Source of the DNA: Vibrio chagasii
GTDB taxonomy: Bacteria; Pseudomonadota; Gammaproteobacteria; Enterobacterales; Vibrionaceae
NCBI RefSeq assembly: GCF_024347355.1
Contig: NZ_AP025466.1
Span: forward strand, 930,001-994,000
Length of the DNA stretch: 64,000 bases
Reading direction: 5' to 3'
Shown: piece after piece, positions 17,230-51,200 of the stretch
Numbering within the stretch: position 1 is the first letter of the stretch
How the letters are laid out: the number at the start of each line of letters is the position of its first letter
Made by a program: the position numbers and the translations under genes
The notes under the pieces: model-generated
What the model saw: the letters and a program-made list of their open reading frames with translations, nothing else
What the model was told of the DNA's origin: nothing
The model's database searches: none

Positions 17230-17243
17230 ACTTACTATATAAA

Positions 17244-25731: not shown

Positions 25732-25752
25732 ACTACATTGCAGCAAATGCTG

Positions 25753-30800: not shown

Positions 30801-33800
30801 TGCCATTAACGTCCATCAGTTTCTGCCCCGACATATCGTAGTAGCTCTTTTGCCACTGACCATTAGCGTCTTGCACCGCAATCCGATGCCCCTGCGCGTC
30901 GTAATACATTAAACTCACGCCCGACGAGGACGTCACCTGACCTGCGGAGTCCACCGTTCGAGTTGCCGGTGCCGTGACACGCGTCACTTGACCTGCATGA
31001 TTGTAAGTAAAATGGGTCGTCTGGCCATTGACCACTCGGCTTCGCACCTGACCAAACCGGTCAAACTGCTGGGTCGTCACACTGACCTTCCCACCAAAGG
31101 CGGTGCTCTCTTCTCGAAGCAAGTGACCCAAACGATCGTACTCACGATGTACGCTCTTTTCGCCAGTCACGTCTTGAGTCACCTGACCTTGCCCGTCATA
31201 CTGATATCGTGATTGGATGCCTTGACGCGTCGCTACCGTCACCCGGCCCAAACCGTTGTAGCGATAACGCTCTTGGACCGTGGCGTTATGGTGCTTCTCG
31301 GTCACTTCACCAAAGGCGTTGTACTGCGCCGACTCCGTGATGTCCCCTGACGCCGCTTTCACCGTCGTGCCCGTTTGACGCCCCGTAGCGTCATAAGCGT
31401 ATTCTGTCGTACGCTGATGCGTGTACGCCAAGCCCTCACCCACCTTTACCTGAGTACTTTCTCGAATCACCCGGTTCATCAGGTCGCTCTCCACTTGGGT
31501 GTAGTGACCCAACGCGTTCTCCCTTCCCGTCAGCTGACCTTGAACACTAAAGTATTGAAAGCTCTGGCGCCCTTCCGTCAATGTCGCCACTTGGTTACCT
31601 TGGGCGTCGTACAGATAATCCACGCGTTGATGAGCACGTAAACGTGCCGGACGCTCGGTTTGACCGGCAATCGCCAGCCCTGACACCACGTAATCACGGG
31701 CTTTACCCCAAGTCGACACCAAACGCCCCAGCGCATCATACTCTTGTGTGATCCGATTGGCGGCCGAGCTGTGCGTCGACGCATCCGGAGCCCCCACCTC
31801 CTCAACGGTCATGGTCATCCGACCCGCATAATCGTGATAAGTCGTGGTCACAAGATCATCGGTGTGATGGCTTACCCGATCACCGTCATGCGCACTGAAC
31901 GTCACATTATGACGCGTCACTTGATGGCGATGCCCTCGCGCGTCGTAGCCATAGGTTATTCGGCGCATCGCTTGTGCCGATGTCTGTGTGCTCACCCAGG
32001 CGTCGACGTGACTCAGGCGCCACTCCCCTTGATAACGATGGGTCAAGATTTTCTCTTCCGACAACTCACCCAACCCGTTGTAACCATATAACGTCAAGTA
32101 ATTTTCTTCATTTAGGCTCGCCAACCGCTGCCCTGTGACCGAGTACAAGTGTTTGACCTGTGTGCTTAGCTCACCGTCATAGTGTTTAGACACGCTCACT
32201 CGTTCACCGAAACGGTTGAACTCCGTACGTTCAGTTAAAGTATGCGCATCCACGCTGCTGCTCTGTGTCACAGCAACACGCTCACCGCGAGCATTGTAGG
32301 CCTCGCTGACCTGACGCCAATCGCCTCCTTTCTGAGTAAAGTCACTCAATGCCGATACGCTCAGGCTTTGACCCGGTTGACGCGCTGTGGTGTACGCCTT
32401 GGCGTAACGGCGTTGCTCAATTTTTTCACCATAGCCGTTGTAACGATGCTCGGTGATGTACCCCAATTCATCCACATCAAAACGTAACTGACCCGCCGCG
32501 TCGTATACGCGGTCGCGGCGTGCACCTTCAGCATTAATATTAATGGACGCCAGCCCCTGACCGTTGTACACCACCTGATTGCCCGCCAAGCCCTGGGCTT
32601 GCACTTGATGTCCTTCTACGTCATAAGTGAAGGACTGAGTATTTTGCAGGCGAGTGCCGTCGGCCTTTGTGGTACGCAGTACATTGCCTAAACTGTCGTA
32701 GGCATGACGAGTCGTCAGCCGACCAATGAACTGGGTGACCGCTTGCTCTTTTTGCACGTCAGCGTAGCTGACTATCGCCGAGCGCTCAGTGATTAACCGC
32801 CCGCGCGCGTCATACTCGTAGTCCGTATCGTTGCTGGCAATATCAGCCTTTGCCTGACGAAGCGTGGTATAACGTGCCAGATGCACCTGCTGCTGTGCTT
32901 GCTCAATGGCCTCACTCGCTTGATGTGTCGAGGTGTGAGCCTGAGTTAGGGCAACATTGACCTCCCCGTGCAACGCCACGGCGTCACCAAGGTGCTGTCG
33001 GGCGGTTTGCAATGACTGCGCAGTCCGACTCAGCGATTGGTGCGCTTGACCAAACTTGATGCTCGCTTGGTTTAAGGTCGTTCGCGCCGCAAGCAGCTCT
33101 GTCTCTGTTCGAAGTTTATCAGCCTGAGCTTGTTCCAAATGGGTGCGCGCTTCCGATAACAGCGCTTGTGATGCTTCACGAGCACGCCTAGCCTGAGAGA
33201 GCTGCTCTTCAGCCTCGCGGAACGCTTGATAAGCTGCACTAAGACTTCGCCTAGCCTGAGTTAGTGCGTTAATTGCCTGCTGATGTGCCCGCTGAGCCGC
33301 CTGCACTGCGCGTTCAGCATCATTAACTCGTTGTGACGCCTGTGTGACCAAATTATTTTTCTGGGTCAACGCATTTTGAGAAAGTGACACAACTGTTTTG
33401 GCTTGCGAGCTTCTCTGTTTGGCGTACCTAAAGTTCCGTATCTGGCTGATGATAGTAGACAATACACTAATATCTCTTCTGAACTGTGTCATCTGTCTGG
33501 CATAGCGGTTTGCCTCATCTTCCGCATCTATTGCCCGATCATAAAACACTTCCTCAACCCCGCCAGATGCTTGATAAAACATTTTCCAGTTGTATTCAGC
33601 TTCAGCATCCCACTTTGCTTTTTCAGTCGTAGCTTTTGATAAGCGGGTGGTAAAGGTTTTTTTTAGATTATTCGCTACTCCAATACAGGTATTCAATGCC
33701 GCTATATTCGACGCGCGCGTGCGTAATAAACGGGAACTTAAATCGCGCATTGCACTATCACTATGACTTTTTATGCCTCTGGCACTTGCAGCTAATAACG

Positions 33801-36800
33801 AAAACACCTGCTCCTCTGAGCTTTTGGCGGTAGTCAACTCGCGCTTAGCAGCATCCAACTCACGCTGTTTAACGGCCCTGTCTCGTTCGGCCTGTGACAA
33901 AATCTCTTTCTGAGCTGACAAATGCCTGCTTGCACTTATCAGTCCTTGGGATTTCGCTCGCTCACTCGATTCAGCTCTCCTAACCTTTGTCTGCTGTTCT
34001 TTACCAATTGTTTCAGCAGCTTCAGCCGCGCGTAAAGAGCTGCTCCACGCTACGCTTTTTTGTGAAAATTCGATCGTCCTAGTGTTAAATGCCGCCTGTC
34101 TCGCTTCAACTCGACTTTGATCCTGCGCTAAGGTAACTTGTAACGCGTCATACCCCGCACGCTGCTCACTCAACGCATCAAACTGTGCCTGCATTGCCGC
34201 CGATAAACTCTCCAGCTCTTTACGCAAAGCCTCTACTGTCGCTCGGTTCGCCACCACGCTTTGCTGCGCTTGAACCTGCTTGCCATCAGCGCCTTCGATG
34301 TGCTGCTCCGCACGATCACTCAACCCATCCACATCGTCCAACGTTGCGGTGCCGTCACCCACATCTGGCTTGAATGTTGGATTGTACGCACTCACCTGCA
34401 ATAAGCTTGGCTCAAAGTCAGAGGGCTCGGCCCCCTCAACGGAAGTGAATGGGTTGGCCGCAATCTGAGATTTTAGCGACGATAACCTCGCCTGTGCCGA
34501 CGCTTCATCTTCCGTTGCTTGCGTCAATATCGCTCGAAGCCCTTCATTATTTGGCTCACGAGACAACGCACTCTGCGCTGACTGCTTGGCCGTGCGCGCC
34601 TTACCTAATGCCACCTCATATTTACGAATTAAGGCCTGCTCTTCCTGGCGAATCGCTCCCTGTAAGGAAACGATGTCTCGCGCCAAAGTCTCTTGACGCG
34701 CCGCTTCTAAACTGGCCTCTTGGTATAGACGGTTCAAACGTTGAGTGGCGCCACTTAGCTGATTGCCCAACACACCATTTTCTGCATGAGTGCGCGCGAT
34801 ACCGGAGGACAATTCCGCCAATGACTGCTTCATGTTATCAATGCGGGCTTGTTGATCGCTCAGTGTAGCCAGTTGTTGATTGAGCTTGTCGGATACAATG
34901 TCCGCTGACGCCAGGCGGCTCAGTGCCAATCGAATGGCGGCTCCGTCCTCTAAAGTGCTGTCTTGCTGGCGTACGACCTCCAACGCCACAGACAAAGCCT
35001 CGTTATTGACGTACACTTTCTGTCGAGTTTTCTCCGAGTGCCGATTGTATTGGTACTCCACTAAGTACCCTTCGCCATCCATCTCAAAGACCAAGCGACC
35101 CAGCACATCGAACACACTCAGCTCTGAGCGTACTCGCCCCGCTTGAACTTCTTGTGATAACGCGGCTTTAAATGCCGCCACCTCGGCGTCACTGCGCCCT
35201 TGCAGACTCACCGGTTGGTCGTAACGAATCGTATGCGTTACCCGCCCCATGACATCGTAACCGCGCTCCGTCACCGCCCCCGTTTCACTGATACTGAAGC
35301 GCAATTGCCCTTTCTCGTCGTAAATGGACTCACTGATTCGATTGTTCGGCGAGGCCGCTAACCAATCACTGTCGGTCACCGGTTTGGCGTATCGCGTGGT
35401 GCGTATAACTCGATTCGCCGCGTCATACTCATAACCCGTGGCATAGTGCAAACCATCAATATCAAATGCCAAACGTCCTGATTCATCATAACGATGTTCG
35501 GTGACACGCCCACTGCCCGATAACGCATCATTCACGCTCTCCACCGTCCATGCGTTCATTGGTGCTATAGCCTTGGCATAACGAGTGGTTTGTATTTTTC
35601 GGTTGGCCGCATCGTACTCATACGCCGTCACATAATTCAGCGCATTGATGACGTACTGGACCCGGCCCTGCGCGTCATACACAGTGCGCGAAATACCACC
35701 TTGACCCGTTTGCTTCTCTATTACTTGACCAGCAGCATTATAGCGATAAGACACGCTGCGGTTACTCGCCCGACCAGACCAGCTCTGACCTGAACGCACG
35801 CGCTTTTCAAGGACTGCGCCCATGACGTCTCGCTCATACTCAGTCACACGCTCTTGCTGAATCTGGCCATTCGCTGCCAACGCCCCTTCTACCTGCTCGA
35901 TTATCCGACCATCGAGGTCATAGGTGTACTCGGTGCCTACCCCGCCTTGCTCAGCCCAGATTTTACGGCCCTGACTGTCAAAGCGCAGGGTCGTCACTCG
36001 CCCCTCACGATTTTCACTGATGCGCTGCCCATCGGCGTTGTAGGCGTAAGTGGTGGTTAATTTTTCTCCATCGGCGTCTTGAATCACTTTCCACTGGCGG
36101 CCCAGCGCGTCGTAACGATATTCGGTGCGCGTACCATCAGCATTGGTAGAGAAGGTCAACAGCCCAGTTTGGGCGTGGTATTCGTTGGAAGACAAAGTTT
36201 GAGGTTCGTCGTCGCCTTTGGCGAGGAAGGTGGTGCGGGTCACTTTACCCTGCGCATTGTATTCAAAGCCACGCTGATGACCCAGCCCATCGGTGATGGT
36301 CACTGTTTCACCGTGCGCGTTCTTTTCGGTGACCGTACGAATGCCCCCCGGCGACACCACAGTCACGCGATGGTTCGCATCATCGTACTCATACTCAGTC
36401 TTCTCTCCTGCGCCATTGGTCAGCGATAACGTTCGACCCAGAGCATCCATCTCAATGCGCTCTTGCACAGCTCCCGATAACCTCACCGTTTTTATGCGAC
36501 CACCCGCCACATAATCGGTCACTCGCTCGACGCCTTCACCGTTGGTTTCACTCACCATACGACCTCGATGGTCATATTTACGCTGCCACTGTGAGGCGTA
36601 CTTCACACGCGAAGAGGTCACGGCCTCTCGCGTATCTCCATCCTCAATACGGGTGCCAGCGCGATAATCTTTGGCGACGGACTGATGAATCACGTTCCCT
36701 CGTTCATCGTATTCATACCTCGTGACATGACGCGCGATTTGGCTGCCACTGCGCTCTCCGAAATTCGCGTAAGCCTGTGCCACGTGTTGGCGTACACGAT

Positions 36801-39800
36801 GACTTAGACGACCGTCTTGCTGATATAAGTAAGTGGTGCGCACCCCTTCACCATCCAACTCTCGGCTCAATCGGCCCATTGGGTCATATTCAAACGCCTT
36901 AATGACCTCACCATCGATGCGTGTGCCGCTCACTTCGCCATACGTGTTATACGTCTTGCTCCGCGTATTCCCCAGCGCATCCGTGGTTTGAATTAAGTGC
37001 CCCGCTTTGTCATATTCGTACGTTGTCGTGCCCGTGGCTGGATGATATTGACTCGACTTACGCCCCATGACATCAAACTCAGTGCGGACACCTCGATCCT
37101 CTATCAAGCCAGACAACGCCACACTTTGCCAATCTTGCTGCCCAGCCGCTACCACTTGCCCAGTCAGCTCACCAAAGCCATTGTATGTGCGGTACTCTGA
37201 GCGGCTCACTGACGTGTTGGCCCCCGTGATGGTCTGACGCAGCCTTCCCGTCACATCCTCATACACATAGCGCGTTTCCACTCCGTGTCGGTCTGTTGAC
37301 ACCATCAAGCGACCGGCTTCATCACGACGCTCACGTGAAAGCAGCACTTTTGGATAGCTCGCCCCCAATGCAGGCGATGAACCGGAGTTGATGCCTTCAA
37401 CCACACGAGCGATGTCAACTTGACTCATGTCTTCATCGCCAAATGGATGCCAATACACTTTCTTGTCTCGCCCAGCGTCGAAGTAACAAGTCTCGGTTAA
37501 AGCCCCTTGCTCGTTCATCTGAAAACGCACGCGTCCATGATGGTCATAGACGACTTGAGTGCGATCAAACTCGCCGTCTGGTACTCGAATCGGCGAAGAT
37601 TCCGTAAGGTCAGGGTGATGGTAACGACGCGTTTCTGTCACTTGCCCTCGTGCGTTATACCAATACTGAGTCACGTAACCGCCCTCATCTCGACTCAATA
37701 CCTTGCGCCCGGCCTCATCGTATTCATGCCGAATCGAAATGCTGCCTCGGCTATTACGCTCAACCAATACCCGCCCTTGCGCATCCAATTCCACGCTATT
37801 GACCAGCGCGTCCCTATCGCCAAGAACCACGGTAGTTTTGACCGTCTCTCTGTCATCCTCAAAATAAGACCTCGTCACGCGCGGTTTGATGGTGGTTGAC
37901 AACCCAGACAAGACCGACTCGCCCGTGACGGTCAGCGTACCGCCCCTAACCCAATCGGATGTGTCAACCTCACTGGCGTACTGCGCTTCCACCGCCACTC
38001 GCCCTTGTGGATCTCGTCGGTACTCCGTCACGGCGCCCAATTCCGACACCGTCAACCAAAGCCGACCTTGCGCATCGTAAAACTGAAATTGCTCACTGCC
38101 ATCCGGGTGCTGCGTCGCCACAAGCTGCCCCGCTTCGTTATAAAGGAACTGACGCTCTCGTGACACCAATGTGGGGGCACTGCGTTGCTCTGATATTAAC
38201 TGACCCGCAGTACTGAACGTTTGGGTCACGGTAGCACCACTCGCTTGAGACACCACAACCTGACGGCTTTTGTCTAAATATTCGGTGGTCGTGGTCACCC
38301 CTTGAGCATCCGTTTGGCTAACAACGCGCCCTAACCCATCATAAACTTGAGTCGCGCGGCTCACGACCTTCGCGGTCCCGCTTTCCAGATCCCCCACTAA
38401 GGTATCCGATGCCAATAACTGACCAAACGCATCGTAAGTAAAACGAGTATGCTCGTTCCGACTGTGACGAAGGCTCAACGAGCCTTCGCTCGCTGACTGT
38501 TCATCCAACAATTGAGCGGTTTCGCCTTCCGGGTGAATGTCAAAGGCCACCAACAGTACAGAAGGTAACGCCACAACTGGCTCATCCGGCGCCCCTACGC
38601 TCGATAGATTCAACGCTAAGTCGACATTCAAAATCAACCCCAGGTCACTCTGTAATAAGTCGCTGCTCCACTCACCTTTTGTTGACAAATATATTCGACC
38701 GCCGGCGAGACGGTGACGATTTGTGAGACTCCCTAATTCTCCCAACAGTTGCCCTGACTGCTCTTCGTTCTGGTGAGTATTGAACGTCTTTGAGGACACG
38801 AGCTGACCGTCTGCGTTCAATAATGTCAGTGTTACTCCGGAAGTCGCTCCATCAATACGTTGGCCACCCAGCCAAACTCCCGCAGAAGTGTTCGAAGCCA
38901 CCACCTCAAGGTGAGGCGACGTCAGCCCATCCCCTTGGTCATCAAGCTGTTCATGCCGTGTTTGGGTATGCAATAGACCACGCTGATAACTGAACGTCGT
39001 CAACGCTGTTTGACGTTTATCTTGTGCCTCTGACCACTCCATAAGCGCTTGGATTGATGGGGAACCAGTGCCTTGCGCATCAAACACCGCATTCACATAC
39101 ACTCGAGAATGCGTGCGCTGACCAAAGCCATCGTATGCGTATTCCGTCACTAACCCGCCTTCGTTGATTTCGTAACGCAGGTTTACCCCATCATAGAGGG
39201 CATAACGGTGCCCTTCTCCCGCTCGCCCATTATTGATGTGCGTCGCCACCAAGCGTTGCATGTCATCGTATTCGTAGCGTTCACGCCATTCACCCAACGC
39301 TCGCTTTACCGTGCAATTGCCCATCTCATCATATTGGTAATCGGTGACACGCTCCCCCAATGTCCCTGTCTCAACCGCTGCCACTAAGTTATTCTGACTA
39401 TCGTAATGGTAACGTGTCGCATGAGGCTCACCGTTTGACTCTTTCAAACCATAACCAATATCTTTGTCGTAGCGCACTTCGGGAGACAAGGTGCCCACTA
39501 AACGGCCTTGCTCATCATGCGCGTAATACCACGCCTGCCCTGTGGCATCGGTCACTTTCAACTGGTGCCCATTAGCACGCTCTGGCTGATAATCCAGCAA
39601 GGTGACAATGCCGTTATCATCAATACGACTTAGGTGCGGTTTCCCCGCCACCGTGTCATAGCCGAGTGTCATCACACTGCCATTACTTTTACTGATGCGG
39701 TGAATAAGATGACTGTCGTCATCGTGGTACTCATAACGGGTCGTCAATACTTGACCATCCGTTATTGACTTATCTTCCGGCGAGAGGTCCACCTTCACGC

Positions 39801-40461
39801 TCGATAAACGCCCTTTAGCATCGTAACCATAATGCACTTTACTGTGCGAGTGAGTGAGATTACCTGCGCTGTCCTCTGTCCAGCTATCGATGCGCGTCAA
39901 CTGACCCTTGGCATCGAACACAAAACGCAGCTCTTCGCCGTTTACACTCTGAACCGCTGTCAGCCGCTCACCTTGATACCGATAATGGGTTTGGTTACCA
40001 AATCGGTCTTCTGCGCGCAGCATACGGCCACTGTCGGCATCGTAGTACTCCTTGACGCCTGTGCTGCCTTCTTCATATACCCACTCTTTACTCTGGCGAA
40101 TTAAGCTATCATGGGCCCCTGCACCGGCCGTTGACTCGTAGCCGCTCCCCTTAGCGTGAAACACTGAAGCATGCCCATCACCTGAGACACGTTTAATGAC
40201 TGAGCCTGCCACCTGTATTTCTTGCTCGAATGAGAAGCGCCAGTTATCGCCATTACCATCTTGCTGCTGGCCTTGGCTGTTGTAGGTGCGGACAAGAGAC
40301 AGATCCAGACCTTTACTGACTAAGGTTTGGTCTTGATGATGCAACACCAAGTTGCCGCTCGACGCGTTGATCTGTAGCCCATTGTTACCACCTAGCTTAA
40401 TGCTGGCTTGCCCTTGTGGATCGAAATGGCCTAACCCATTCCCACCGATGATCGTTGCCAT
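27055..40461 (-). CDS. Giant Rhs/YD-repeat toxin A (4468 residues)
   Basis: The protein starts MATIIGGNGLGHF without signal peptide or PAAR domain. A Rhs-type N-terminal domain is followed by dozens of YD repeats (YEYDxxGR type) to about residue 1815. A coiled-coil insertion rich in Ala, Gln, Glu and Arg spans about 1815-2527 and holds a variable cassette at 2193-2366. More YD repeats follow to about 3760. A LysM-like domain is at about 3792-3840 (ANDTLQRVSQRVYGDSRYWY). A proline-rich link (APPPPKKSCNP) leads into Gly/Ala-rich hydrophobic stretches at about 3880-3960, a conserved pre-toxin region ends near 4220, and the unique tip follows. The tip has glycine-rich hydrophobic helices near its end (AAGAAATALLVASAPAWLAAL), suggesting a membrane-active toxin. 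I do not find the canonical DPxG-bounded core end. YD repeats form a shell around the tip in known Rhs proteins. Confidence 0.9.
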   Translation of the reverse strand: MATIIGGNGLGHFDPQGQASIKLGGNNGLQINASSGNLVLHHQDQTLVSKGLDLSLVRTYNSQGQQQDGNGDNWRFSFEQEIQVAGSVIKRVSGDGHASVFHAKGSGYESTAGAGAHDSLIRQSKEWVYEEGSTGVKEYYDADSGRMLRAEDRFGNQTHYRYQGERLTAVQSVNGEELRFVFDAKGQLTRIDSWTEDSAGNLTHSHSKVHYGYDAKGRLSSVKVDLSPEDKSITDGQVLTTRYEYHDDDSHLIHRISKSNGSVMTLGYDTVAGKPHLSRIDDNGIVTLLDYQPERANGHQLKVTDATGQAWYYAHDEQGRLVGTLSPEVRYDKDIGYGLKESNGEPHATRYHYDSQNNLVAAVETGTLGERVTDYQYDEMGNCTVKRALGEWRERYEYDDMQRLVATHINNGRAGEGHRYALYDGVNLRYEINEGGLVTEYAYDGFGQRTHSRVYVNAVFDAQGTGSPSIQALMEWSEAQDKRQTALTTFSYQRGLLHTQTRHEQLDDQGDGLTSPHLEVVASNTSAGVWLGGQRIDGATSGVTLTLLNADGQLVSSKTFNTHQNEEQSGQLLGELGSLTNRHRLAGGRIYLSTKGEWSSDLLQSDLGLILNVDLALNLSSVGAPDEPVVALPSVLLVAFDIHPEGETAQLLDEQSASEGSLSLRHSRNEHTRFTYDAFGQLLASDTLVGDLESGTAKVVSRATQVYDGLGRVVSQTDAQGVTTTTEYLDKSRQVVVSQASGATVTQTFSTAGQLISEQRSAPTLVSRERQFLYNEAGQLVATQHPDGSEQFQFYDAQGRLWLTVSELGAVTEYRRDPQGRVAVEAQYASEVDTSDWVRGGTLTVTGESVLSGLSTTIKPRVTRSYFEDDRETVKTTVVLGDRDALVNSVELDAQGRVLVERNSRGSISIRHEYDEAGRKVLSRDEGGYVTQYWYNARGQVTETRRYHHPDLTESSPIRVPDGEFDRTQVVYDHHGRVRFQMNEQGALTETCYFDAGRDKKVYWHPFGDEDMSQVDIARVVEGINSGSSPALGASYPKVLLSRERRDEAGRLMVSTDRHGVETRYVYEDVTGRLRQTITGANTSVSRSEYRTYNGFGELTGQVVAAGQQDWQSVALSGLIEDRGVRTEFDVMGRKSSQYHPATGTTTYEYDKAGHLIQTTDALGNTRSKTYNTYGEVSGTRIDGEVIKAFEYDPMGRLSRELDGEGVRTTYLYQQDGRLSHRVRQHVAQAYANFGERSGSQIARHVTRYEYDERGNVIHQSVAKDYRAGTRIEDGDTREAVTSSRVKYASQWQRKYDHRGRMVSETNGEGVERVTDYVAGGRIKTVRLSGAVQERIEMDALGRTLSLTNGAGEKTEYEYDDANHRVTVVSPGGIRTVTEKNAHGETVTITDGLGHQRGFEYNAQGKVTRTTFLAKGDDEPQTLSSNEYHAQTGLLTFSTNADGTRTEYRYDALGRQWKVIQDADGEKLTTTYAYNADGQRISENREGRVTTLRFDSQGRKIWAEQGGVGTEYTYDLDGRIIEQVEGALAANGQIQQERVTEYERDVMGAVLEKRVRSGQSWSGRASNRSVSYRYNAAGQVIEKQTGQGGISRTVYDAQGRVQYVINALNYVTAYEYDAANRKIQTTRYAKAIAPMNAWTVESVNDALSGSGRVTEHRYDESGRLAFDIDGLHYATGYEYDAANRVIRTTRYAKPVTDSDWLAASPNNRISESIYDEKGQLRFSISETGAVTERGYDVMGRVTHTIRYDQPVSLQGRSDAEVAAFKAALSQEVQAGRVRSELSVFDVLGRLVFEMDGEGYLVEYQYNRHSEKTRQKVYVNNEALSVALEVVRQQDSTLEDGAAIRLALSRLASADIVSDKLNQQLATLSDQQARIDNMKQSLAELSSGIARTHAENGVLGNQLSGATQRLNRLYQEASLEAARQETLARDIVSLQGAIRQEEQALIRKYEVALGKARTAKQSAQSALSREPNNEGLRAILTQATEDEASAQARLSSLKSQIAANPFTSVEGAEPSDFEPSLLQVSAYNPTFKPDVGDGTATLDDVDGLSDRAEQHIEGADGKQVQAQQSVVANRATVEALRKELESLSAAMQAQFDALSEQRAGYDALQVTLAQDQSRVEARQAAFNTRTIEFSQKSVAWSSSLRAAEAAETIGKEQQTKVRRAESSERAKSQGLISASRHLSAQKEILSQAERDRAVKQRELDAAKRELTTAKSSEEQVFSLLAASARGIKSHSDSAMRDLSSRLLRTRASNIAALNTCIGVANNLKKTFTTRLSKATTEKAKWDAEAEYNWKMFYQASGGVEEVFYDRAIDAEDEANRYARQMTQFRRDISVLSTIISQIRNFRYAKQRSSQAKTVVSLSQNALTQKNNLVTQASQRVNDAERAVQAAQRAHQQAINALTQARRSLSAAYQAFREAEEQLSQARRAREASQALLSEARTHLEQAQADKLRTETELLAARTTLNQASIKFGQAHQSLSRTAQSLQTARQHLGDAVALHGEVNVALTQAHTSTHQASEAIEQAQQQVHLARYTTLRQAKADIASNDTDYEYDARGRLITERSAIVSYADVQKEQAVTQFIGRLTTRHAYDSLGNVLRTTKADGTRLQNTQSFTYDVEGHQVQAQGLAGNQVVYNGQGLASININAEGARRDRVYDAAGQLRFDVDELGYITEHRYNGYGEKIEQRRYAKAYTTARQPGQSLSVSALSDFTQKGGDWRQVSEAYNARGERVAVTQSSSVDAHTLTERTEFNRFGERVSVSKHYDGELSTQVKHLYSVTGQRLASLNEENYLTLYGYNGLGELSEEKILTHRYQGEWRLSHVDAWVSTQTSAQAMRRITYGYDARGHRHQVTRHNVTFSAHDGDRVSHHTDDLVTTTYHDYAGRMTMTVEEVGAPDASTHSSAANRITQEYDALGRLVSTWGKARDYVVSGLAIAGQTERPARLRAHQRVDYLYDAQGNQVATLTEGRQSFQYFSVQGQLTGRENALGHYTQVESDLMNRVIRESTQVKVGEGLAYTHQRTTEYAYDATGRQTGTTVKAASGDITESAQYNAFGEVTEKHHNATVQERYRYNGLGRVTVATRQGIQSRYQYDGQGQVTQDVTGEKSVHREYDRLGHLLREESTAFGGKVSVTTQQFDRFGQVRSRVVNGQTTHFTYNHAGQVTRVTAPATRTVDSAGQVTSSSGVSLMYYDAQGHRIAVQDANGQWQKSYYDMSGQKLMDVNGSGDASHYYHDALGNRVARVNNAGQGEMFDFDAQGQLLSRSRLSADRTYAELYVRYAYDQVGQRYLEEWQGESGYRTYTQYDAVGRITETQGEGTHRRYEYNTLGQKTAEHWLEDGAIQATKRAAYNAMGRVTQETWLNGQVIVYEYDDFGRVTRKYGGDLDQRFVYDRGGLLAQQTVGGKSETYVYDVNGRETQRVLKEGEHRLNTHTQWDAMGRIHTIKATEARAFGESLAASEVRYDYDAVGNRRKVVTVKGEETQTRWYHYDGDNRMVGSHTRTQDVATVAIGGHDGSRIITYNALGQKVKEVRWANTSREVYYRQGRSSQRDELVKTETLTGYDENGHLNQVNEFEYAGRQRVKVYEMQQRNARMGHAIEQESSRYEYRYWSATHQAGATARAEQSSVKDEKVDYFYWDGQLTSQHIDGRSDRSRGFRGQYDTHMTYHYSGQLSEQRTTNLKSGGVVDTQAYTYQAKDAFRKSTLTVGTTRRAWGRSYEDGKTEYHYNPAGHLQSVTSTKSSSERKVLSDFEGQIALQLNDGQLTAELSSGGNPLAHVSNKIDADLMDEKASTVGQQPGSYVVSANDTLQRVSQRVYGDSRYWYLLADANGVSPSEPLVEGKRLVVPNQHTQTFNGAESFKPYNESEVLGNISPDPIAPPPPKKSCNPVAMIVMTVVAVVVTVYTAGAAAPMISGVTGAAVGSATGMAAGMAALAGGASVGMSAGVAMGAAAIGGAMGSVASQLVGKAMGVVDDFSWGQVAMGSFAAAAAAGVGRYLSGGWAATPETAKAASAAQQASFVDRLGTGLVRSTASYGTQYLGAKALGGEMSFNWTNFAASVVGNAASHELSFSLGEGSGSHFTSGWVGAAAASVLRGESLRANAGRFALDAFGNTLGNALVKERLSNEKTRAEPFASTQAPRKGRVFTEQYGTQPLKDIMNKNGQPTTIVTPLSAADDPSNWNFQEEDLTFATHVSGWDAQLEHHFGELALGVSGHERSPGPWRDGYVLNERVPMSPPVPISPIDNSGTNTSFEFFSNLNEWWAEQESKHPVLAQAFSRQALPQTVTGIISDATSGLVGSLRTQVKIGNVSYSEPYKKVRFTHVHNPTPSFTEPALLSRGVEKWNAASAVKMAHGLGEFSQSAKTGGVIGAVMAPAGTVLYYVMDDSKDMASAEFAHEIVYNTGKGVISGYVAGAAGAAATALLVASAPAWLAALGGIAAGVGVGMLVSEGIDYTAQGISSGLDSFNQYGAENWGW
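27801..40461 (-). repeat. Long direct repeat, copy in Rhs A
   Basis: Apart from the internal cassette 33,364-33,884, this part of Rhs A matches 42,219-55,047. The two aligned blocks have exactly equal lengths in both genes (5563 and 6577 bp), meaning no net indels, with only scattered or clustered substitutions, for example around 30,290-30,670. The similarity continues upstream of the start codon. Confidence 0.95.
33364..33884 (-). other. Internal variable cassette of Rhs A (coiled-coil region)
   Basis: About 174 residues (2193-2366) inside the coiled-coil insertion have no visible similarity to the corresponding 230 residues of Rhs B, while both borders are near-identical. The cassette contains AASARGIKSHSDSAMRDLSSR and a Trp/Tyr-rich central part (EYNWKMFYQASGG). 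It appears helical, and is less GC-rich than its borders. It is not recognised as any domain. Confidence 0.85.
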
Positions 40462-40921: not shown

Positions 40922-41130
40922 GATATCGCATCATGATTCTTTATCTCGATTGATAAAGAAGTTGGTTCTAAATAACAGCAGGACCTTTATCAAGGTATTT
41001 GCGAACCTACTGCAAATACTCTTACATTATCTTCAAAAACAAGGCTATCATCGGGCAGTCCTCCCCGATTAACCAAAGATTGATGAATGATATGTTGGAT
41101 ACGATAATACAATAGAACACTCATTAAAGG
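40922..41130. repeat. Rhs-array intergenic module, copy 2
   Basis: This block is related to 25,753-26,048. It shares TTCTAAATAACAGCAGG-like and GCGAACCTACTGCAAATAC words and ends with CACTCATTAAAG. It leads into the plus-strand membrane protein gene, whose promoter lies in the right part of the module. Confidence 0.75.
41080..41108 (+). promoter_or_regulatory. Candidate sigma-70 promoter of the plus-strand immunity gene
   Basis: TTGATG at 41,080-41,085 and GATAAT at 41,103-41,108 are separated by exactly 17 bases. They lie about 35 bases upstream of the start codon, which has AAAGGAGA as ribosome-binding site at 41,126-41,133. Confidence 0.6.
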
Positions 41131-41143
41131 AGATAATTTAAAT

Positions 41144-41464
41144 ATGTCTATAATAGCTGTTTTTTCATTTCTAACATTTGTTGTTGCCATAGTGGCACTA
41201 ATTTTGTCTTTTATTCTCGGGATTATTCTTGGACGTATTTTAAAAGTACACGAACCAAGCGCTCGAAATCAACTTTTCGCATTTTACATACCTGTTTCCT
41301 TACTTTTGTTATATGGATACGTTAAAGATAGTGAAAATGCCAATAAAATTCCCAGAGATAAGCTTTGGGTATTGGTTACCTTAAAGTACCTAATACCAAC
41401 AGCACTAATCTCTGGAAGTATGATGTTTATCACTGGCTATTTTGCATTTACTAACCAGCTGTAA
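41144..41464 (+). CDS. Small membrane protein, candidate immunity to Rhs B, convergent with it
   Basis: The 106-residue protein has about three membrane helices: residues about 5-32 (FLTFVVAIVALILSFILGII), about 45-62 and about 82-103. Short charged loops lie between them. No family is recognised. It has a good ribosome-binding site and a candidate promoter of its own. Its stop codon is only two bases from the stop codon of Rhs B on the other strand. The place is where the co-directional immunity gene would be in the other two units, and none is found on the minus strand. Constitutive expression of an immunity protein independent of the toxin would make sense (inference). Confidence 0.65.
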   Translation: MSIIAVFSFLTFVVAIVALILSFILGIILGRILKVHEPSARNQLFAFYIPVSLLLLYGYVKDSENANKIPRDKLWVLVTLKYLIPTALISGSMMFITGYFAFTNQL

Positions 41465-41466
41465 AG

Positions 41467-42218
41467 CTAGTCAGTAAAATCAGCATAGGCTTCTCTCCCT
41501 AAGTCATAAACCCAAGTCAAGCCATTTATGATTGGATCTCGTAAACTCTGTTCGTAAAAGGTATCTATTTCATAATCAACCTTAACCCCTACTCCAACAC
41601 CTGTTGTTACGGCTATAGTTGGTGCTGCTGGCGCGAATACACCTGTTGCTGTTGTTAATGTACCAGCAATACCTCCGGCAACTGTTCCTACATATGTTGA
41701 CGCTGCACCACTTGAAACCATTTGTACAAAATCGACACCAGTAGCAATAAACGCTCTTGAACTAACCCCATACTCATTGATGTTATTGTAGCCATCAACA
41801 CCAAATTCATAAGCATCCCCAACAGTTCCTAAGTATTTACTGTATCTGTACAAAGACGAGCTTTCACTCACAACTTTAGAGGAAGTTGAGTAGGTCTGAT
41901 TATTACCATAAATCCTAATCATTTCGCTGCCATCCGGACCATAAATAGAGGAATGCGGTAGCTCAGTGTTAACTAAATGAGGTGAGCTAACTTTTAAATC
42001 ACCTAATGTATTATAATTAAACATATAACTCGTCGAAATATGTTGTGTCCTTGAGTTAAGCACTCGCCCATATTCATCGACATGTTCAAATAATTTTTTG
42101 GAATTAACGACTGTTGTACCTACTCGTTGGCTAATGTCTGTTAAGCGACTGGCACCACCAAATACATGCCCCTCATTGCCAATTGTGAACTTTGGATCCG
42201 CTACTCTATCTTTACAAA
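41467..42218 (-). other. Variable C-terminal toxin tip of Rhs B
   Basis: About 250 residues unrelated to the tip of Rhs A, with lower GC than the preceding core. The first part is polar with SSIYGPDGSEMIRIYG. The second part holds about two hydrophobic segments and a charged end (IDTFYEQSLRDPIINGL). No catalytic motif is recognised. Confidence 0.75.
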
Positions 42219-45200
42219 GCACATAACCATCACGCCAAGGTCCAGGCAAGCGCTCATGTCCGCTGACTCCCAGTGCTAACTCTCCAAAGTGATGTTCTAA
42301 CTGCGCATCCCATCCGCTCACATGCGTCGCGAATGTTAAATCTTCCTCTTGGAAATTCCAGTTACTCGGGTCATCCGCTGCAGAAAGTGGCGTTACAATC
42401 GTCGTTGGTTGACCATTTTTGTTCATTATGTCTTTAAGAGGCTGGGTTCCATATTGTTCAGTAAAAACACGACCCTTTCTAGGTGCCTGAGTGGAAGCAA
42501 ACGGCTCAGCCCTTGTTTTCTCATTCGACAATCGCTCTTTCACCAACGCATTGCCCAACGTATTACCAAACGCATCCAAAGCGAAGCGCCCTGCGTTAGC
42601 TCGCAGCGACTCTCCTCGCAACACTGACGACGCCGCCGCGCCAACCCAACCTGATGTAAAGTGTGACCCACTGCCTTCACCCAAAGAGAAACTCAACTCA
42701 TGACTCGCCGCATTTCCGACCACCGAAGCCGCAAAATTCGTCCAGTTAAATGACATCTCTCCGCCTAACGCCTTAGCCCCCAAATACTGCGTACCATAGG
42801 AGGCTGTACTTCGTACCAAACCGGTACCCAGCCTATCGACAAAGCTCGCCTGTTGAGCTGCGCTCGCCGCTTTCGCCGTCTCCGGTGTCGCCGCCCAGCC
42901 TCCACTCAAGTACCGGCCTACGCCTGCTGCCGCTGCCGCCGCAAAACTGCCCATGGCCACTTGTCCCCATGAGAAATCATCCACCACGCCCATGGCTTTA
43001 CCAACCAATTGACTCGCAACCGAGCCCATGGCGCCTCCGATCGCCGCCGCGCCCATCGCGACCCCAGCACTCATGCCAACGCTCGCACCGCCAGCCAAGG
43101 CCGCCATACCTGCTGCCATACCCGTAGCGCTGCCTACCGCCGCTCCCGTAACTCCTGATATCATTGGCGCCGCCGCACCCGCCGTGTAAACGGTGACCAC
43201 CACGGCAACCACCGTCATCACGATCATTGCCACCGGATTACAACTCTTCTTCGGCGGAGGTGGGGCGATCGGATCCGGGCTGATGTTGCCCAGCACCTCA
43301 CTTTCGTTATAAGGCTTAAAGCTTTCTGCGCCGTTGAATGTCTGCGTATGCTGGTTTGGCACCACCAAACGCTTGCCTTCTACCAGCGGCTCACTCGGAG
43401 ACACACCATTTGCATCAGCCAACAAGTACCAGTAACGACTGTCACCGTAGACCCGCTGTGACACTCGCTGTAACGTGTCATTGGCCGACACAACGTAACT
43501 GCCCGGTTGTTGCCCCACCGTACTCGCTTTCTCATCCATTAAGTCGGCGTCTATCTTATTCGACACATGCGCTAAAGGATTGCCACCACTGCTCAGCTCT
43601 GCCGTCAATTGGCCATCATTCAGTTGCAGCGCTATCTGCCCCTCAAAATCGCTCAACACTTTACGCTCACTCGACGACTTTGTGCTGATCACGCTCTGCA
43701 AATGCCCTGCTGGGTTGTAGTGATACTCCGTCTTACCATCTTCATACGAACGTCCCCAAGCCCGGCGGGTGGTGCCCACCGTTAATGTAGATTTACGAAA
43801 CGCATCTTTAGCTTGGTAAGTGTAAGCTTGCGTATCTACGACACCGCCACTTTTCAAATTGGTGGTGCGCTGCTCACTCAGCTGACCCGAATAGTGGTAC
43901 GTCATATGCGTGTCGTATTGCCCTCGAAACCCACGACTGCGATCACTCCGCCCATCGATATGCTGCGAGGTCAGCTGACCATCCCAATAGAAATAGTCGA
44001 CCTTCTCATCTTTGACGCTGCTCTGCTCGGCTCGGGCCGTCGCCCCAGCCTGATGCGTCGCGCTCCAATAACGGTACTCATAACGGCTGCTCTCTTGCTC
44101 AATCGCATGCCCCATTCGTGCGTTGCGCTGCTGCATCTCATACACTTTGACTCGCTGACGCCCCGCATACTCAAACTCGTTGACTTGGTTCAGGTGTCCA
44201 TTCTCGTCATACCCCGTCAACGTCTCGGTTTTCACCAACTCATCGCGCTGACTCGACCGCCCTTGACGGTAATACACCTCCCTGGATGTATTGGCCCAGC
44301 GCACCTCTTTCACTTTTTGACCCAGTGCGTTGTAGGTGATGATCCGGCTACCGTCATGCCCACCTATCGCCACCGTCGCCACATCTTGTGTTCGAGTATG
44401 AGAGCCGACCATCCGGTTATCTCCGTCATAATGGTACCAACGCGTCTGCGTCTCCTCGCCTTTCACGGTCACCACTTTACGGCGGTTACCCACCGCATCG
44501 TAGTCATAACGTACTTCCGACGCCGCTAAGCTCTCGCCAAATGCTCGTGCTTCGGTCGCTTTAATCGTGTGAATACGACCCATTGCATCCCACTGCGTGT
44601 GAGTATTCAGTCGGTGCTCTCCCTCTTTCAGCACTCGTTGTGTCTCACGACCATTCACATCATAAACATACGTCTCAGACTTGCCGCCGACCGTCTGCTG
44701 AGCCAGTAACCCACTTCGGTCATAGACAAAACGCTGGTCTAAATCCCCCCCGTATTTACGCGTAACCCGTCCAAAGTCATCATACTCATAAACGATAACC
44801 TGACCATTTAGCCACGTCTCTTGTGTCACTCGCCCCATCGCGTTGTACACGGCCCGCTTGGTGGCCTGAATGGCCCCATCTTCCAGCCAGTGCTCCGCCG
44901 TTTTTTGTCCCAGCGTGTTATACTCATAGCGTCGATGAGTCCCTTCGCCCTGAGTCTCTGTGATCCGTCCGGCCGCATCATATTGCGTATACGTTCGGTA
45001 ACCCGACTCCCCTTGCCACTCTTCCAGGTAACGTTGCCCAACTTGGTCGTACGCGTAACGAACGTACAATTCAGCATAAGTTCGGTCGGCACTCAACCGA
45101 GAGCGACTGAGAAGTTGCCCCTGCGCATCAAAGTCAAACATTTCTCCTTGGCCCGCGTTATTGACCCGTGCGACTCTGTTCCCCAGCGCATCATGATAGT

Positions 45201-48200
45201 AATGACTGGCATCGCCACTGCCATTAACGTCCATCAGTTTCTGCCCCGACATATCGTAGTAGCTCTTTTGCCACTGACCATTAGCGTCTTGCACCGCAAT
45301 CCGATGCCCCTGCGCGTCGTAATACATTAAACTCACGCCCGACGAGGACGTCACCTGACCTGCGGAGTCCACCGTTCGAGTTGCCGGTGCCGTGACACGC
45401 GTCACTTGACCTGCATGGTTGTAAGTAAAATGGGTCGTCTGGCCGTTGACCACTCGGCTTCGCACCTGACCAAACCGGTCAAACTGCTGGGTCGTCACAC
45501 TGACCTTCCCACCAAAGGCGGTGCTCTCTTCTCGAAGCAAGTGACCTAAGCGATCGTACTCACGATGTACGCTCTTTTCGCCAGTCACGTCTTGAGTCAC
45601 CTGACCTTGCCCGTCATACTGATATCGTGATTGGATGCCTTGACGCGTCGCTTCCGTCACCCGGCCCAAACCGTTGTAGCGATAACGCTCTTGGACCGTG
45701 GCGTTATGATGCTTCTCAGTCACTTCACCAAAGGCGTTGTACTGCGCCGACTCCGTGATGTCCCCTGACGCCGCTTTCACCGTCGTGCCCGTTTGACGCC
45801 CCGCAGCGTCATAAGCGTATTCTGTCGTACGCTGATGCGTGTACGCCAAGCCCTCACCCACCTTTACCTGAGTACTTTCTCGAATCACCCGGTTCATCAG
45901 GTCGCTCTCCACTTGGGTGTAGTGACCCAACGCGTTCTCCCTTCCCGTCAGCTGACCTTGAACACTAAAGTATTGAAAGCTCTGGCGCCCTTCCGTCAAT
46001 GTCGCCACTTGGTTACCTTGGGCGTCGTACAGATAATCCACGCGTTGATGAGCACGTAAACGTGCCGGACGCTCGGTTTGACCGGCAATCGCCAGCCCTG
46101 ACACCACGTAATCACGGGCTTTACCCCAAGTCGACACCAAACGCCCCAGCGCATCATACTCTTGTGTGATCCGATTGGCGGCCGAGCTGTGCGTCGACGC
46201 ATCCGGAGCCCCCACCTCCTCAACGGTCATGGTCATCCGACCCGCATAATCGTGATAAGTCGTGGTCACAAGATCATCGGTGTGATGGCTTACCCGATCA
46301 CCGTCATGCGCACTGAACGTCACATTATGACGCGTCACTTGATGGCGATGCCCTCGCGCGTCGTAGCCATAGGTTATTCGGCGCATCGCTTGTGCCGATG
46401 TCTGTGTGCTCACCCAGGCGTCGACGTGACTCAGGCGCCACTCCCCTTGATAACGATGGGTCAAGATTTTCTCTTCCGACAACTCACCCAACCCGTTGTA
46501 ACCATATAACGTCAAGTAATTTTCTTCATTTAGGCTCGCCAACCGCTGCCCTGTGACCGAGTACAAGTGTTTGACCTGTGTGCTTAGCTCACCGTCATAG
46601 TGTTTAGACACGCTCACTCGTTCACCGAAACGGTTGAACTCCGTACGTTCAGTTAAAGTATGCGCATCCACGCTGCTGCTCTGTGTCACAGCAACACGCT
46701 CACCGCGAGCATTGTAGGCCTCGCTGACCTGACGCCAATCGCCTCCTTTCTGAGTAAAGTCACTCAATGCCGATACGCTCAGGCTTTGACCCGGTTGACG
46801 CGCTGTGGTGTACGCCTTGGCGTAACGGCGTTGCTCAATTTTTTCACCATAGCCGTTGTAACGATGCTCGGTGATGTACCCCAATTCATCCACATCAAAA
46901 CGTAACTGACCCGCCGCGTCGTATACGCGGTCGCGGCGTGCACCTTCAGCATTAATATTAATGGACGCCAGCCCCTGACCGTTGTACACCACCTGATTGC
47001 CCGCCAAGCCCTGGGCTTGCACTTGATGTCCTTCTACGTCATAAGTGAAGGACTGAGTATTTTGCAGGCGAGTGCCGTCGGCCTTTGTGGTACGCAGTAC
47101 ATTGCCTAAACTGTCGTAGGCATGACGAGTCGTCAGCCGACCAATGAACTGGGTGACCGCTTGCTCTTTTTGCACGTCAGCGTAGCAGACTATCGCCGAG
47201 CGCTCAGTGATTAACCGCCCGCGCGCGTCATACTCGTAGTCCGTATCGTTGCTGGCAATATCAGCCTTTGCCTGACGAAGCGTCGTATAACGTGCCAGGT
47301 GCACCTGCTGCTGTGCTTGCTCAATGGCCTCACTCGCTTGATGTGTCGAGGTGTGAGCCTGAGTTAGGGCAACATTGACCTCCCCGTGCAACGCCACGGC
47401 GTCACCAAGGTGCTGTCGGGCGGTTTGCAATGACTGCGCAGTCCGACTCAGCGATTGGTGCGCTTGACCAAACTTGATGCTCGCTTGGTTTAAGGTCGTT
47501 CGCGCCGCAAGCAGCTCTGTCTCTGTTCGAAGTTTATCTGCCTGAGCTTGTTCCAAATGGGTGCGCGCTTCCGATAACAGCGCTTGTGATGCTTCACGAG
47601 CACGCCTAGCCTGAGAGAGCTGCTCTTCAGCCTCGCGGAACGCTTGATAAGCTGCACTAAGACTTCGCCTAGCCTGAGTTAGCGCGTTAATTGCCTGCTG
47701 ATGTGCCCGCTGAGCCGCCTGCACTGCGCGTTCAGCATCATTAACTCGTTGTGACGCCTGTGTGACCAAATTATTTTTCTGAGACAACGCACTTTCTAAA
47801 TTATTAATTTGCCTTCGCTTACTAGATATACTTTCGTTGATCCTCTCTATCTCTTGTAGCTTTGTTAATAGAGCGTTAATTTTTGAGATCCCGGTTGACG
47901 CAGAATTCTTGAGTAAATCAAAAGAACCAATGAGCATTGTATTTCTTATGTTCGTAACAACTTGCTGGCCTTGACGCATACCTATATGTTCGTATATGTC
48001 TCTTTCAGCCTCTTGGTAAGTCATCAGTTCACTCGGGATTGGGAAATTTGGCCAATTTGGAAATGTTCTTGGCGCTGCACTTGATACCCGATGAACGTGA
48101 GACAACATAGCTTTGAACTTAGTGAGCTTTGCTTTTGCTACAGAAATCGAACGAGCTTTGGTAAAGTCTTTATTTAACGAACCGTTATTACTAAACATAG

Positions 48201-51200
48201 CTAAATAACTTGATTTGGCTTGCTCTAGCTCAGATTTAGTGAAATTTGCCCCTGACACCCTATTTGTAATGTAGTTTTGAATTCTCGGCCCAAACAGTTC
48301 TCCGGACTGACCTCCGCCAGTCATTGTCAGAGCAAACATGGCTTTACTTCTATTTGAACCATTTCGAACAAAAGCTTTTAATGAGTTAATAGCTGATTTT
48401 TGTGCTTTTAATGACGGACCTAAACTAGTTTTTGTTTCAGCCAATTGTCGCGAAATGCGATCCCTATCTTGTTCGGCCTGTGACAAAATCTCTTTCTGAG
48501 CTGACAAATGCCTGCTTGCACTTATCAGTCCTTGGGATTTCGCTCGCTCACTCGATTCAGCTCTCCTAACCTTTGTCTGCTGTTCTTTACCGATTGTTTC
48601 AGCAGCTTCAGCCACGCGTAAAGAGCTGCTCCACGCTACGCTTTTTTGTGAAAATTCGATCGTCCTAGTGTTAAATGCCGCCTGTCTCGCTTCAACTCGA
48701 CTTTGATTCTGCGCTAAGGTAACTTGTAACGCGTCATACCCCGCACGCTGCTCACTCAACGCATCAAACTGTGCCTGCATTGCCGCCGATAAACTCTCCA
48801 GCTCTTTACGCAAAGCCTCTACTGTCGCTCGGTTCGCCACCACGCTTTGCTGCGCTTGAACCTGCTTGCCATCAGCGCCTTCGATGTGCTGCTCCGCACG
48901 ATCACTCAACCCATCCACATCGTCCAACGTTGCGGTGCCGTCACCCACGTCTGGCTTGAATGTTGGATTGTACGCACTCACCTGCAATAAGCTTGGCTCA
49001 AAGTCAGAGGGCTCGGCCCCCTCAACGGAAGTGAATGGGTTGGCCGCAATCTGAGATTTTAGCGACGATAACCTCGCCTGTGCCGACGCTTCATCTTCCG
49101 TTGCTTGCGTCAATATCGCTCGAAGCCCTTCATTATTTGGCTCACGAGACAACGCACTCTGCGCTGACTGCTTGGCCGTGCGCGCCTTACCTAATGCCAC
49201 CTCATATTTACGAATTAAGGCCTGCTCTTCCTGGCGAATCGCTCCCTGTAAGGAAACGATGTCTCGCGCCAAAGTCTCTTGACGCGCCGCTTCTAAACTG
49301 GCCTCTTGGTATAGACGGTTCAAACGTTGAGTGGCGCCACTTAGCTGATTGCCCAACACACCATTTTCTGCATGAGTGCGCGCGATACCGGAGGACAATT
49401 CCGCCAATGACTGCTTCATGTTATCAATGCGGGCTTGTTGATCGCTCAGTGTAGCCAGTTGTTGATTGAGCTTGTCGGATACAATGTCCGCTGACGCCAG
49501 GCGGCTCAGTGCCAATCGAATGGCGGCTCCGTCCTCTAAAGTGCTGTCTTGCTGGCGTACGACCTCCAACGCCACAGACAAAGCCTCGTTATTGACGTAC
49601 ACTTTCTGTCGAGTTTTCTCCGAGTGCCGATTGTATTGGTACTCCACTAAGTACCCTTCGCCATCCATCTCAAAGACCAAGCGACCCAGCACATCGAACA
49701 CACTCAGCTCTGAGCGTACTCGCCCCGCTTGAACTTCTTGTGATAACGCGGCTTTAAATGCCGCCACCTCGGCGTCACTGCGCCCTTGCAGACTCACCGG
49801 TTGGTCGTAACGAATCGTATGCGTTACCCGCCCCATGACATCGTAACCGCGCTCCGTCACCGCCCCCGTTTCACTGATACTGAAGCGCAATTGCCCTTTC
49901 TCGTCGTAAATGGACTCACTGATTCGATTGTTCGGCGAGGCCGCTAACCAATCACTGTCGGTCACCGGTTTGGCGTATCGCGTGGTGCGTATAACTCGAT
50001 TCGCCGCGTCATACTCATAACCCGTGGCATAGTGCAAACCATCAATATCAAATGCCAAACGTCCTGATTCATCATAACGATGTTCGGTGACACGCCCACT
50101 GCCCGATAACGCATCATTCACGCTCTCCACCGTCCATGCGTTCATTGGTGCTATAGCCTTGGCATAACGAGTGGTTTGTATTTTTCGGTTGGCCGCATCG
50201 TACTCATACGCCGTCACATAATTCAGCGCATTGATGACGTACTGGACCCGGCCCTGCGCGTCATACACAGTGCGCGAAATACCACCTTGACCCGTTTGCT
50301 TCTCTATTACTTGACCAGCAGCATTATAGCGATAAGACACGCTGCGGTTACTCGCCCGACCAGACCAGCTCTGACCTGAACGCACGCGCTTTTCAAGGAC
50401 TGCGCCCATGACGTCTCGCTCATACTCAGTCACACGCTCTTGCTGAATCTGGCCATTCGCTGCCAACGCCCCTTCTACCTGCTCGATTATCCGACCATCG
50501 AGGTCATAGGTGTACTCGGTGCCTACCCCGCCTTGCTCAGCCCAGATTTTACGGCCCTGACTGTCAAAGCGCAGGGTCGTCACTCGCCCCTCACGATTTT
50601 CACTGATGCGCTGCCCATCGGCGTTGTAGGCGTAAGTGGTGGTTAATTTTTCTCCATCGGCGTCTTGAATCACTTTCCACTGGCGGCCCAGCGCGTCGTA
50701 ACGATATTCGGTGCGCGTACCATCAGCATTGGTAGAGAAGGTCAACAGCCCAGTTTGGGCGTGGTATTCGTTGGAAGACAAAGTTTGAGGTTCGTCGTCG
50801 CCTTTGGCGAGGAAGGTGGTGCGGGTCACTTTACCCTGCGCATTGTATTCAAAGCCACGCTGATGACCCAGCCCATCGGTGATGGTCACTGTTTCACCGT
50901 GCGCGTTCTTTTCGGTGACCGTACGAATGCCCCCCGGCGACACCACAGTCACGCGATGGTTCGCATCATCGTACTCATACTCAGTCTTCTCTCCTGCGCC
51001 ATTGGTCAGCGATAACGTTCGACCCAGAGCATCCATCTCAATGCGCTCTTGCACAGCTCCCGATAACCTCACCGTTTTTATGCGACCACCCGCCACATAA
51101 TCGGTCACTCGCTCGACGCCTTCACCGTTGGTTTCACTCACCATACGACCTCGATGGTCATATTTACGCTGCCACTGTGAGGCGTACTTCACACGCGAAG

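Follow-up and report, generated by a model that had tools for sequence, protein, structure and literature searches.

Two giant Rhs genes differ at an internal block and at the C-terminal tip

We analyzed 64,000 nucleotides (nt) of Vibrio chagasii DNA (NZ_AP025466.1, positions 930,001 to 994,000; the window), which carry three paralogous Rhs genes, A, B, and C. A and B are both uninterrupted open reading frames (ORFs) with an RHS/YD-repeat array and an N-terminal DUF6531 region, as identified by Pfam. Each has a coiled-coil insertion with a variable block inside it, and each ends in a variable tip:

27055..40461, minus strand: Rhs A, giant YD-repeat protein of 4468 amino acids (aa); ORF; Pfam RHS_repeat (PF05593), E = 2.8e-109, and DUF6531, E = 1.4e-9
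41467..55047, minus strand: Rhs B, 4526 aa, paralogue of A; ORF; PF05593, E = 2.3e-111
56325..64000, minus strand: Rhs C, third paralogue, extending past the window end; AHH nuclease tip; 48 residues at the coil site versus 731 and 787
32749..34941, minus strand: coiled-coil insertion of A (approximately residues 1841-2571), located at a constant position in the YD shell
47167..49527, minus strand: coiled-coil insertion of B (approximately residues 1841-2627), in which NCBIfam matches SMC (coil) at residues 2393-2586
33378..33875, minus strand: variable apex block of A, 166 codons, 44.6% G+C
47796..48461, minus strand: variable apex block of B, 222 codons, 38.4% G+C
27055..27798, minus strand: C-terminal tip of A, 247 aa, two hydrophobic segments
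41467..42216, minus strand: C-terminal tip of B, 249 aa, no segment at the hydropathy threshold

The original prediction, made from the letters of this DNA, held that A and B are near-identical for more than 12 kb and differ completely at two places only. Nucleotide alignment (blastn) bore this out: it returned two collinear segments, nt 1-6586 at 99.7% identity and nt 7085-12663 of A against 7253-12831 of B (5579 nt) at 99.3%, with a gap at the internal block, and no match at E ≤ 1e-3 within the block or the tip. When the full protein alignment was scanned in 25-residue windows, low-identity stretches were confined to the block and the tip, and the 133 windows outside the coil and the tip lay above the 40% threshold. 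At 498 nt in A and 666 nt in B, the block is slightly narrower than the cassette first proposed (33,364-33,884, 174 residues, and 47,782-48,470, 230 residues), which is nonetheless real. The 56 residues added by the block of B and the 2 added by its tip fully explain the length difference of 58 residues (4526 - 4468), exactly as had been calculated.

The internal module is sharply bounded and separate from the tip, again as proposed. In 30-nt windows, identity falls from 0.97 to 0.53 across 30 nt at the left border and rises from 0.33 to 0.93 across 30 nt at the right border. We rejected a gradual divergence across the A/B coil because of these abrupt borders. Inside the block, A and B are 16.2% identical, which is the level of chance (200 shuffles of block B: mean 15.9%, maximum 20.7%); the tips are 21.3% identical (shuffles: mean 18.7%, maximum 24.5%). 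The blocks are also poor in G+C (44.6% and 38.4%, versus 53-55% in their surroundings), and no equal-length window in the pre-tip remainder of either gene was as poor (0/1117 in A, 0/1084 in B; step 10). Tip B is likewise low in G+C (39.9%). Mismatches between A and B are absent between nt 801 and 6099 and cluster at the block, to its left (6099, 6340, 6434, 6456, 6578, and 6582) and to its right (7088, 7096, 7098, and 7197). This pattern fits recombinational exchange, among other possible histories. The similarity extends upstream: positions 33876-40958 match 48462-55532 at 99.3% (blastn), so nearly 500 bases ahead of the two start codons are common to both genes.

In Pfam at E ≤ 0.01, A and B matched RHS_repeat and DUF6531 only, with no PAAR or other delivery domain, and a hydropathy scan found no N-terminal hydrophobic segment. 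DPxG, the autoprotease motif at the C-terminal core end of type VI secretion system (T6SS) Rhs effectors, occurs at residues 14, 817, and 1193 of A and at 817 and 1193 of B only, leaving the C-terminal end of the core without it. The N-terminal shell of A holds a weak, sub-threshold ILEI-like domain (PF15711, around residues 540-620), which is above the cut-off in the relative P0021 (residues 543-617) and is a candidate for a fixed binding element.

The internal block and the tip move independently

Shell residues 2545-2900 of A, used as a protein query, yielded 766 relatives, and the comparisons below concern the 120 of these 766 that were listed, numbered from P0001. P0001 carries the block of B (2 of 228 residues differ) together with the tip of A (10 of 247 differ). 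Outside these modules it departs from A at 16 of the 1019 residues preceding the block and at 15 of the 1860 that follow. Over the part covered by P0001, low-identity stretches (25-residue windows) occur at the apex only between A and P0001, at the tip only between B and P0001, and at both between A and B. Hence, the two modules move independently of each other.

P0002 combines a B-type block (72% identical) with a third tip, which resembles the tip of P0008 (67% over 213 residues); the arm and apex of P0008 are different. The core of the block is 81% identical between B and P0002, against 47% in the coil just before and after it, which indicates that the head is kept as a unit. Among 124 proteins compared by phmmer, the B block is found also in P0001 and P0002, and the A block in A alone. 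It had been suggested that the cassette might be a specificity module matched to the tip. We rejected such matching on the combinations seen in P0001 (B block, A tip) and P0002 (B-type block, third tip).

The same windows were applied to ten close pairs. Low stretches fell in the tip in nine of the ten, and in the coil in six (A/B, A/P0001, P0008/P0010, P0009/P0010, P0014/P0016, and B/P0002), the last of which shows two short dips in the arm and no swap. Elsewhere there were five short stretches: pairs with P0010 had three, just ahead of the tip, and P0014/P0016 had the other two. Coil replacement was absent from P0008/P0009, P0004/P0005, and B/P0001, which speaks against frequent swapping. 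These proteins share one chassis and carry two modules that are independent of each other; for A, B, and P0001, this modularity is close to certain.

The block is predicted to lie at the apex of a coiled-coil hairpin

We modeled both insertions with AlphaFold2. In each, long helices (pLDDT about 90) flank the apex, which itself consists of low-confidence helices; in B the helices span residues 2041-2228 and 2357-2599, with the apex at about 2230-2356. The prediction of a long coil was thus upheld for the flanks, with the apex left at low confidence. Because the helices are roughly symmetric around the apex in the model, they probably pair antiparallel, as a hairpin. A Foldseek search with the B model returned 18 matches at E ≤ 0.001, long coiled coils or complexes of them (SMC, MukB, Rad50, PrgA, and cilia proteins) with a TM-score of 0.27 at most, and 8w20 was among the weak coil matches (E = 0.025). 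We take these matches to indicate a long coiled coil only.

A hydropathy scan detected no hydrophobic segment in the arm or the block, which weakens an earlier suggestion that the cassette is a translocation head. By composition, the apexes of A, B, P0007, and P0014-P0016 contain stretches rich in G, P, aromatic residues, C, H, and M; the arms contain them too, mostly shorter. By eye, a motif like LNNKYR..SEEQGGG..YTQ.QI or TNEEG.S..Y(T/S)Q.QI, or parts of it, recurs in the insertions of P0004, P0006, P0008, P0010, P0011, P0013, P0017, and P0021, possibly as a turn or an ion-binding element.

Related arms carry different apexes at one site of the shell

Measured between two flanking anchors, A, B, and 16 of 121 returned proteins have an insertion at one and the same site of the YD shell, and these 18 proteins form the basis of the apex and arm counts. 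P0003 (a fragment) and P0018-P0020 and P0023 (pre-coil anchor not placeable) were left out, as were relatives beyond P0023, which are about 25-33% identical in the YD repeats and have an unreliable insertion site. The insertion measures 731 aa in A; 787 in B, P0001, and P0002; 1595 in P0004-P0006; 2248 in P0007 and 2237 in P0015; 1306 in P0008 and P0009; and 1464, 1589, 1591, 982, 1206, 999, and 363 in the others. Organism names are available for 11 of the 16 relatives and belong to Vibrio, Photobacterium, Enterovibrio, Grimontia, and Motilimonas, of which Motilimonas lies outside Vibrionaceae.

Three proteins, C, P0012, and P0022, were counted as coil-less: they have 45-48 residues at the site, although the sequence just ahead of it matches A at 74-80%. 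In Rhs C, identity to A is about 74% as far as the coil site and drops to 39% beyond it, which makes this site a mosaic boundary between shell types as well. With the 701-aa coil alone as query, the one sequence retrieved was P0003, a fragment whose N-arm is related at 54%. In searches run without a positive control, the arm was found neither in genome contigs (A N-arm and a three-sequence arm alignment) nor in viral contigs (alignment); plasmids gave no match to arm, shell, or B block, and phages none to the B block. Across 227 genomes of one genus, the arm and the adjoining shell each scored 0/227, again without a positive control, and no frequency is drawn from this figure.

The last 205 residues of the insertion are related in 153 of 153 protein pairs. 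The first 125 residues are linked in 136 of 153, the exception being P0021, and the 150 residues preceding the apex in 109 of 136. With borders set by eye from the composition scan, the apexes are linked in only 46 of the 153 pairs and form five clusters. Between the apex families A, B, P4-type, P7-type, P14, and P16, the HHalign probability was 4.2% at most. We therefore put the number of apex families, as judged from sequence, at five or six in the 18 proteins; the survey proposed at the outset thus turned up more than two cassettes.

P0014 and P0016 repeat the A/B pattern in a second clade, with arms 93-94% identical and apexes 23% identical. They also differ at a second place, where P0016 has about 210-225 residues of globular composition and P0014 about 20. 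P0008 and P0010 likewise differ at a further place, by a coil-like insert (about 30-40 versus 200 residues).

Tips A and B lie beside candidate immunity genes

The following genes adjoin the tips:

26049..27002, minus strand: candidate immunity gene for tip A, 317 aa, four hydrophobic segments, 52 nt downstream of A
41144..41464, plus strand: candidate immunity gene for tip B, 106-aa hydrophobic ORF, convergent, 2 nt from the B stop codon
55737..56321, minus strand: Imm11 immunity gene, 3 nt downstream of C, E = 3.4e-10

The tip of C is an AHH nuclease (E = 1.5e-6), and with Imm11 adjoining it, the locus looks antibacterial. A and B probably act on bacteria as well. Beside their tips, in the position expected of immunity genes, lie unnamed hydrophobic ORFs; Pfam gave no match for the 317-aa protein, and we saw no additional immunity gene next to A or B. 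The convergent layout at tip B resembles that of pore-forming colicins. Tip A, with its two hydrophobic segments, is possibly membrane-active, and tip B may be so too.

Weak phmmer links (about 1e-3 to 1e-6; P0004, whose tail looks truncated, was omitted from the clustering) join the tips of A, B, P0001, P0006, P0011, and P0022 in a single cluster and could reflect either a distant relation between tips A and B or shared composition. The tip region of the coil-less P0022 (Vibrio caribbeanicus) matches tip B at 61% identity over 297 residues, so tips occur on arm-bearing and arm-less chassis alike.

The apex is a candidate binding head

What could the internal module do? The YD-repeat shell serves as a common chassis, from one fixed position of which a long coiled-coil hairpin is predicted to project. 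One module is the C-terminal tip, the presumed toxic part, which has a candidate immunity gene of its own; the other is the predicted hairpin apex, replaced as a unit between conserved arms, presumably by homologous recombination. The arm would keep the apex clear of the shell, for binding a surface structure of the target cell; exchange of the apex would then alter recognition, and exchange of the tip would alter the poison. This reading is favored by the predicted distal position of the apex, its exchangeability, its retention as a unit (B/P0002), its lack of hydrophobic segments, and its independence of the tip. We consider it probable, with considerable room for doubt, that A and B are giant Rhs toxins aimed at bacteria, with two modules exchangeable independently of each other, the apex most likely being a head that binds target cells on an outward-pointing hairpin. 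The original prediction had listed a receptor-binding head among its options, and it remains the best of them: we would place receptor binding somewhat above an even bet.

Several observations weigh against this reading or narrow it. First, the arm models are poor (pTM 0.34) and stem from alignments of 5 and 4 sequences; neither block has a Pfam domain above the cut-off, and the B block has no sequence match in PDB. Composition can also make coiled coils seem related, so the arm counts may be too high, and the apexes of P0014 and P0016 may be distant homologues (HHalign 4.2%, phmmer 2.6e-4). Second, toxins of this kind can evidently work without an arm, as it is absent from C, P0012, and P0022. 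Third, P0001 starts at A residue 1177 and, lacking the first 1176 residues, spans roughly three quarters of the protein; its genome of origin may be that of A and B or a different one. Fourth, the apexes are mostly clade-specific, whereas tips scatter. On a tree of the post-coil shell segment (long branches for P0017, C, and P0021), apex labels need seven changes, the minimum for eight labels. Tip labels, assigned by hand for 13 of 21 rows and with tips A, B, and P0006/P0011 labeled apart, need nine changes (shuffles: mean 9.1, as low in 138 of 200). Nine proteins, among them members of Vibrio, Photobacterium, and Enterovibrio, retain the P4-type apex, which looks less caught up in an arms race than the tips. 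The apexes of P0007 and P0015 are 46% identical against 82-86% for their arms, that is, they diverged faster without being replaced. Apexes did change within clades, with A inside the B group and in P0014/P0016. The notion of a modular swap site thus stands as far as exchange goes, and its frequent use is opposed by the clade-following apexes and by P0007/P0015. From these comparisons, the coil site appears exchangeable, yet swapped less often than the tip.

Alternatively, the apex might attach the toxin to the machinery with which the producer exports or displays it, with apex families mirroring the machine used. Such docking would supply the export handle otherwise missing from A and B and would agree with apex families following clade more than tips do. 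However, A and B adjoin in one genome and have near-identical N-termini, upstream DNA, and arms with unrelated apexes, so that each cell would need two machines. We regard docking as unlikely.

Less likely still, apex diversity could reflect escape from attack by phage, a protease, or the target's defence, with no choice of target. An exposed position at the predicted end of a long hairpin and complete replacement in genes otherwise near-unchanged would both suit escape; its chances are low given that one apex type, the P4-type, persists in nine proteins of at least three genera and that the B-type core is better conserved than the adjoining coil (81% versus 47%). We give comparably poor odds to an apex that has no separate function and turns over as a by-product when repetitive coiled-coil DNA recombines. 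Other indels in the arm, as in P0008/P0010, are what a by-product predicts, but the distinctive residue-rich stretches of the apexes (present, mostly shorter, in the arms), the unusual G+C of the A and B blocks, and the keeping of the B block as a unit in P0002 are not. The cassette is very improbably a second effector borne on the arm, a suggestion weakened since it was first made: it varies independently as toxin tips do, but lies internally between two long helices, lacks a Pfam match above the cut-off (A, B) and a PDB sequence match (B), and is accompanied by no extra immunity gene that we could see beside A or B.

The arm with its replaceable apex is a concrete candidate for the recognition part of Rhs toxins that lack a recognizable secretion domain. 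Nature also supplies a ready-made comparison in protein pairs whose differences lie almost entirely at the apex (A/P0001) or at the tip (B/P0001).

Other features of the window

Short repeats at 40905-41058, between A and B, and at 25741-25954, beside an IS4-type transposase (24394-25731), are 91-92% identical and possibly remnants of an element by which the locus was spread or duplicated. Positions 11943-19546 (minus strand) hold genes with MatE, nucleotidyltransferase, hexapeptide transferase, GT2, GNAT, PLP decarboxylase, DUF6271, and PhyH domains. This run lies between inverted stretches at 10718-11638 (minus) and 20263-21183 (plus) that are 77.6% identical, and a domain scan identified the ORF at 20263 as a DDE transposase. 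The whole resembles a small-molecule cluster framed in the manner of a composite transposon.

Comparison with known systems

The comparisons below draw on the sections covered of the papers cited. T6SS Rhs effectors, such as RhsA of P. protegens (PMC8765631) and the pore-forming Tse5 (PMC10684867), resemble A and B in having a YD-repeat shell and a polymorphic C-terminal toxin. A and B are about three times longer, have no PAAR match and no DPxG at the core end, and carry a large coiled-coil insertion with a variable apex; the word "coiled" is absent from the main text of PMC8765631 as covered. The TcB/TcC cocoon of Tc toxins (PMC8765631) is likewise a YD-repeat shell around a variable C-terminal effector. 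The immunity-type genes beside the tips of A, B, and C point instead to bacterial targets; no search was made for a TcA-like partner.

The Streptomyces umbrella toxin UmbC (PMC11062931, PMC13274773) is a polymorphic toxin with a long coiled-coil stalk, as in A and B, and the weak Foldseek match 8w20 belongs to this comparison. In UmbC, however, the toxin sits at the end of the stalk and separate lectin subunits do the aiming (PMC11062931), and the likeness is one of architecture. A survey of polymorphic toxins (PMC3482391) describes adhesion domains of the LysM and lectin types in long toxins that bear repeats and raises the possibility that RHS stalks adhere; the parts covered mention neither coiled coils nor an exchangeable internal module. 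In the literature on Rhs, YD-repeat, and Vibrionaceae toxins that we searched, from which subscription papers are mostly missing, we found no description of a second internal variable module in an Rhs protein, nor of a receptor-binding module on an Rhs chassis. The variable C-terminal tip was already known; the second, internal exchangeable module in an Rhs polymorphic toxin appears new, and it is a real, well-defined feature.

The closest functional parallel is CdiA, which has a scaffold of haemagglutinin repeats and belongs to two-partner secretion. Domains of neither kind were found in A or B (Pfam, E ≤ 0.01), which may work like CdiA and are not members of its family. CdiA has two separate exchangeable variable modules, a C-terminal toxin and a central receptor-binding region that differs between classes and sets receptor specificity (PMC5371414). 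A and B likewise have two modules, and as in CdiA, the internal variable region is independent of the tip. In A and B, however, the internal module forms the apex of a coiled coil that is set into an Rhs shell, and its binding role is a proposed one. By analogy with CdiA, we see about an even chance that in this giant Rhs family, whose named members are mostly Vibrionaceae, targeting specificity resides in an exchangeable head borne by a coiled-coil arm, such that payload and recognition recombine independently. If true, the two-module logic of CdiA would extend to a different scaffold.

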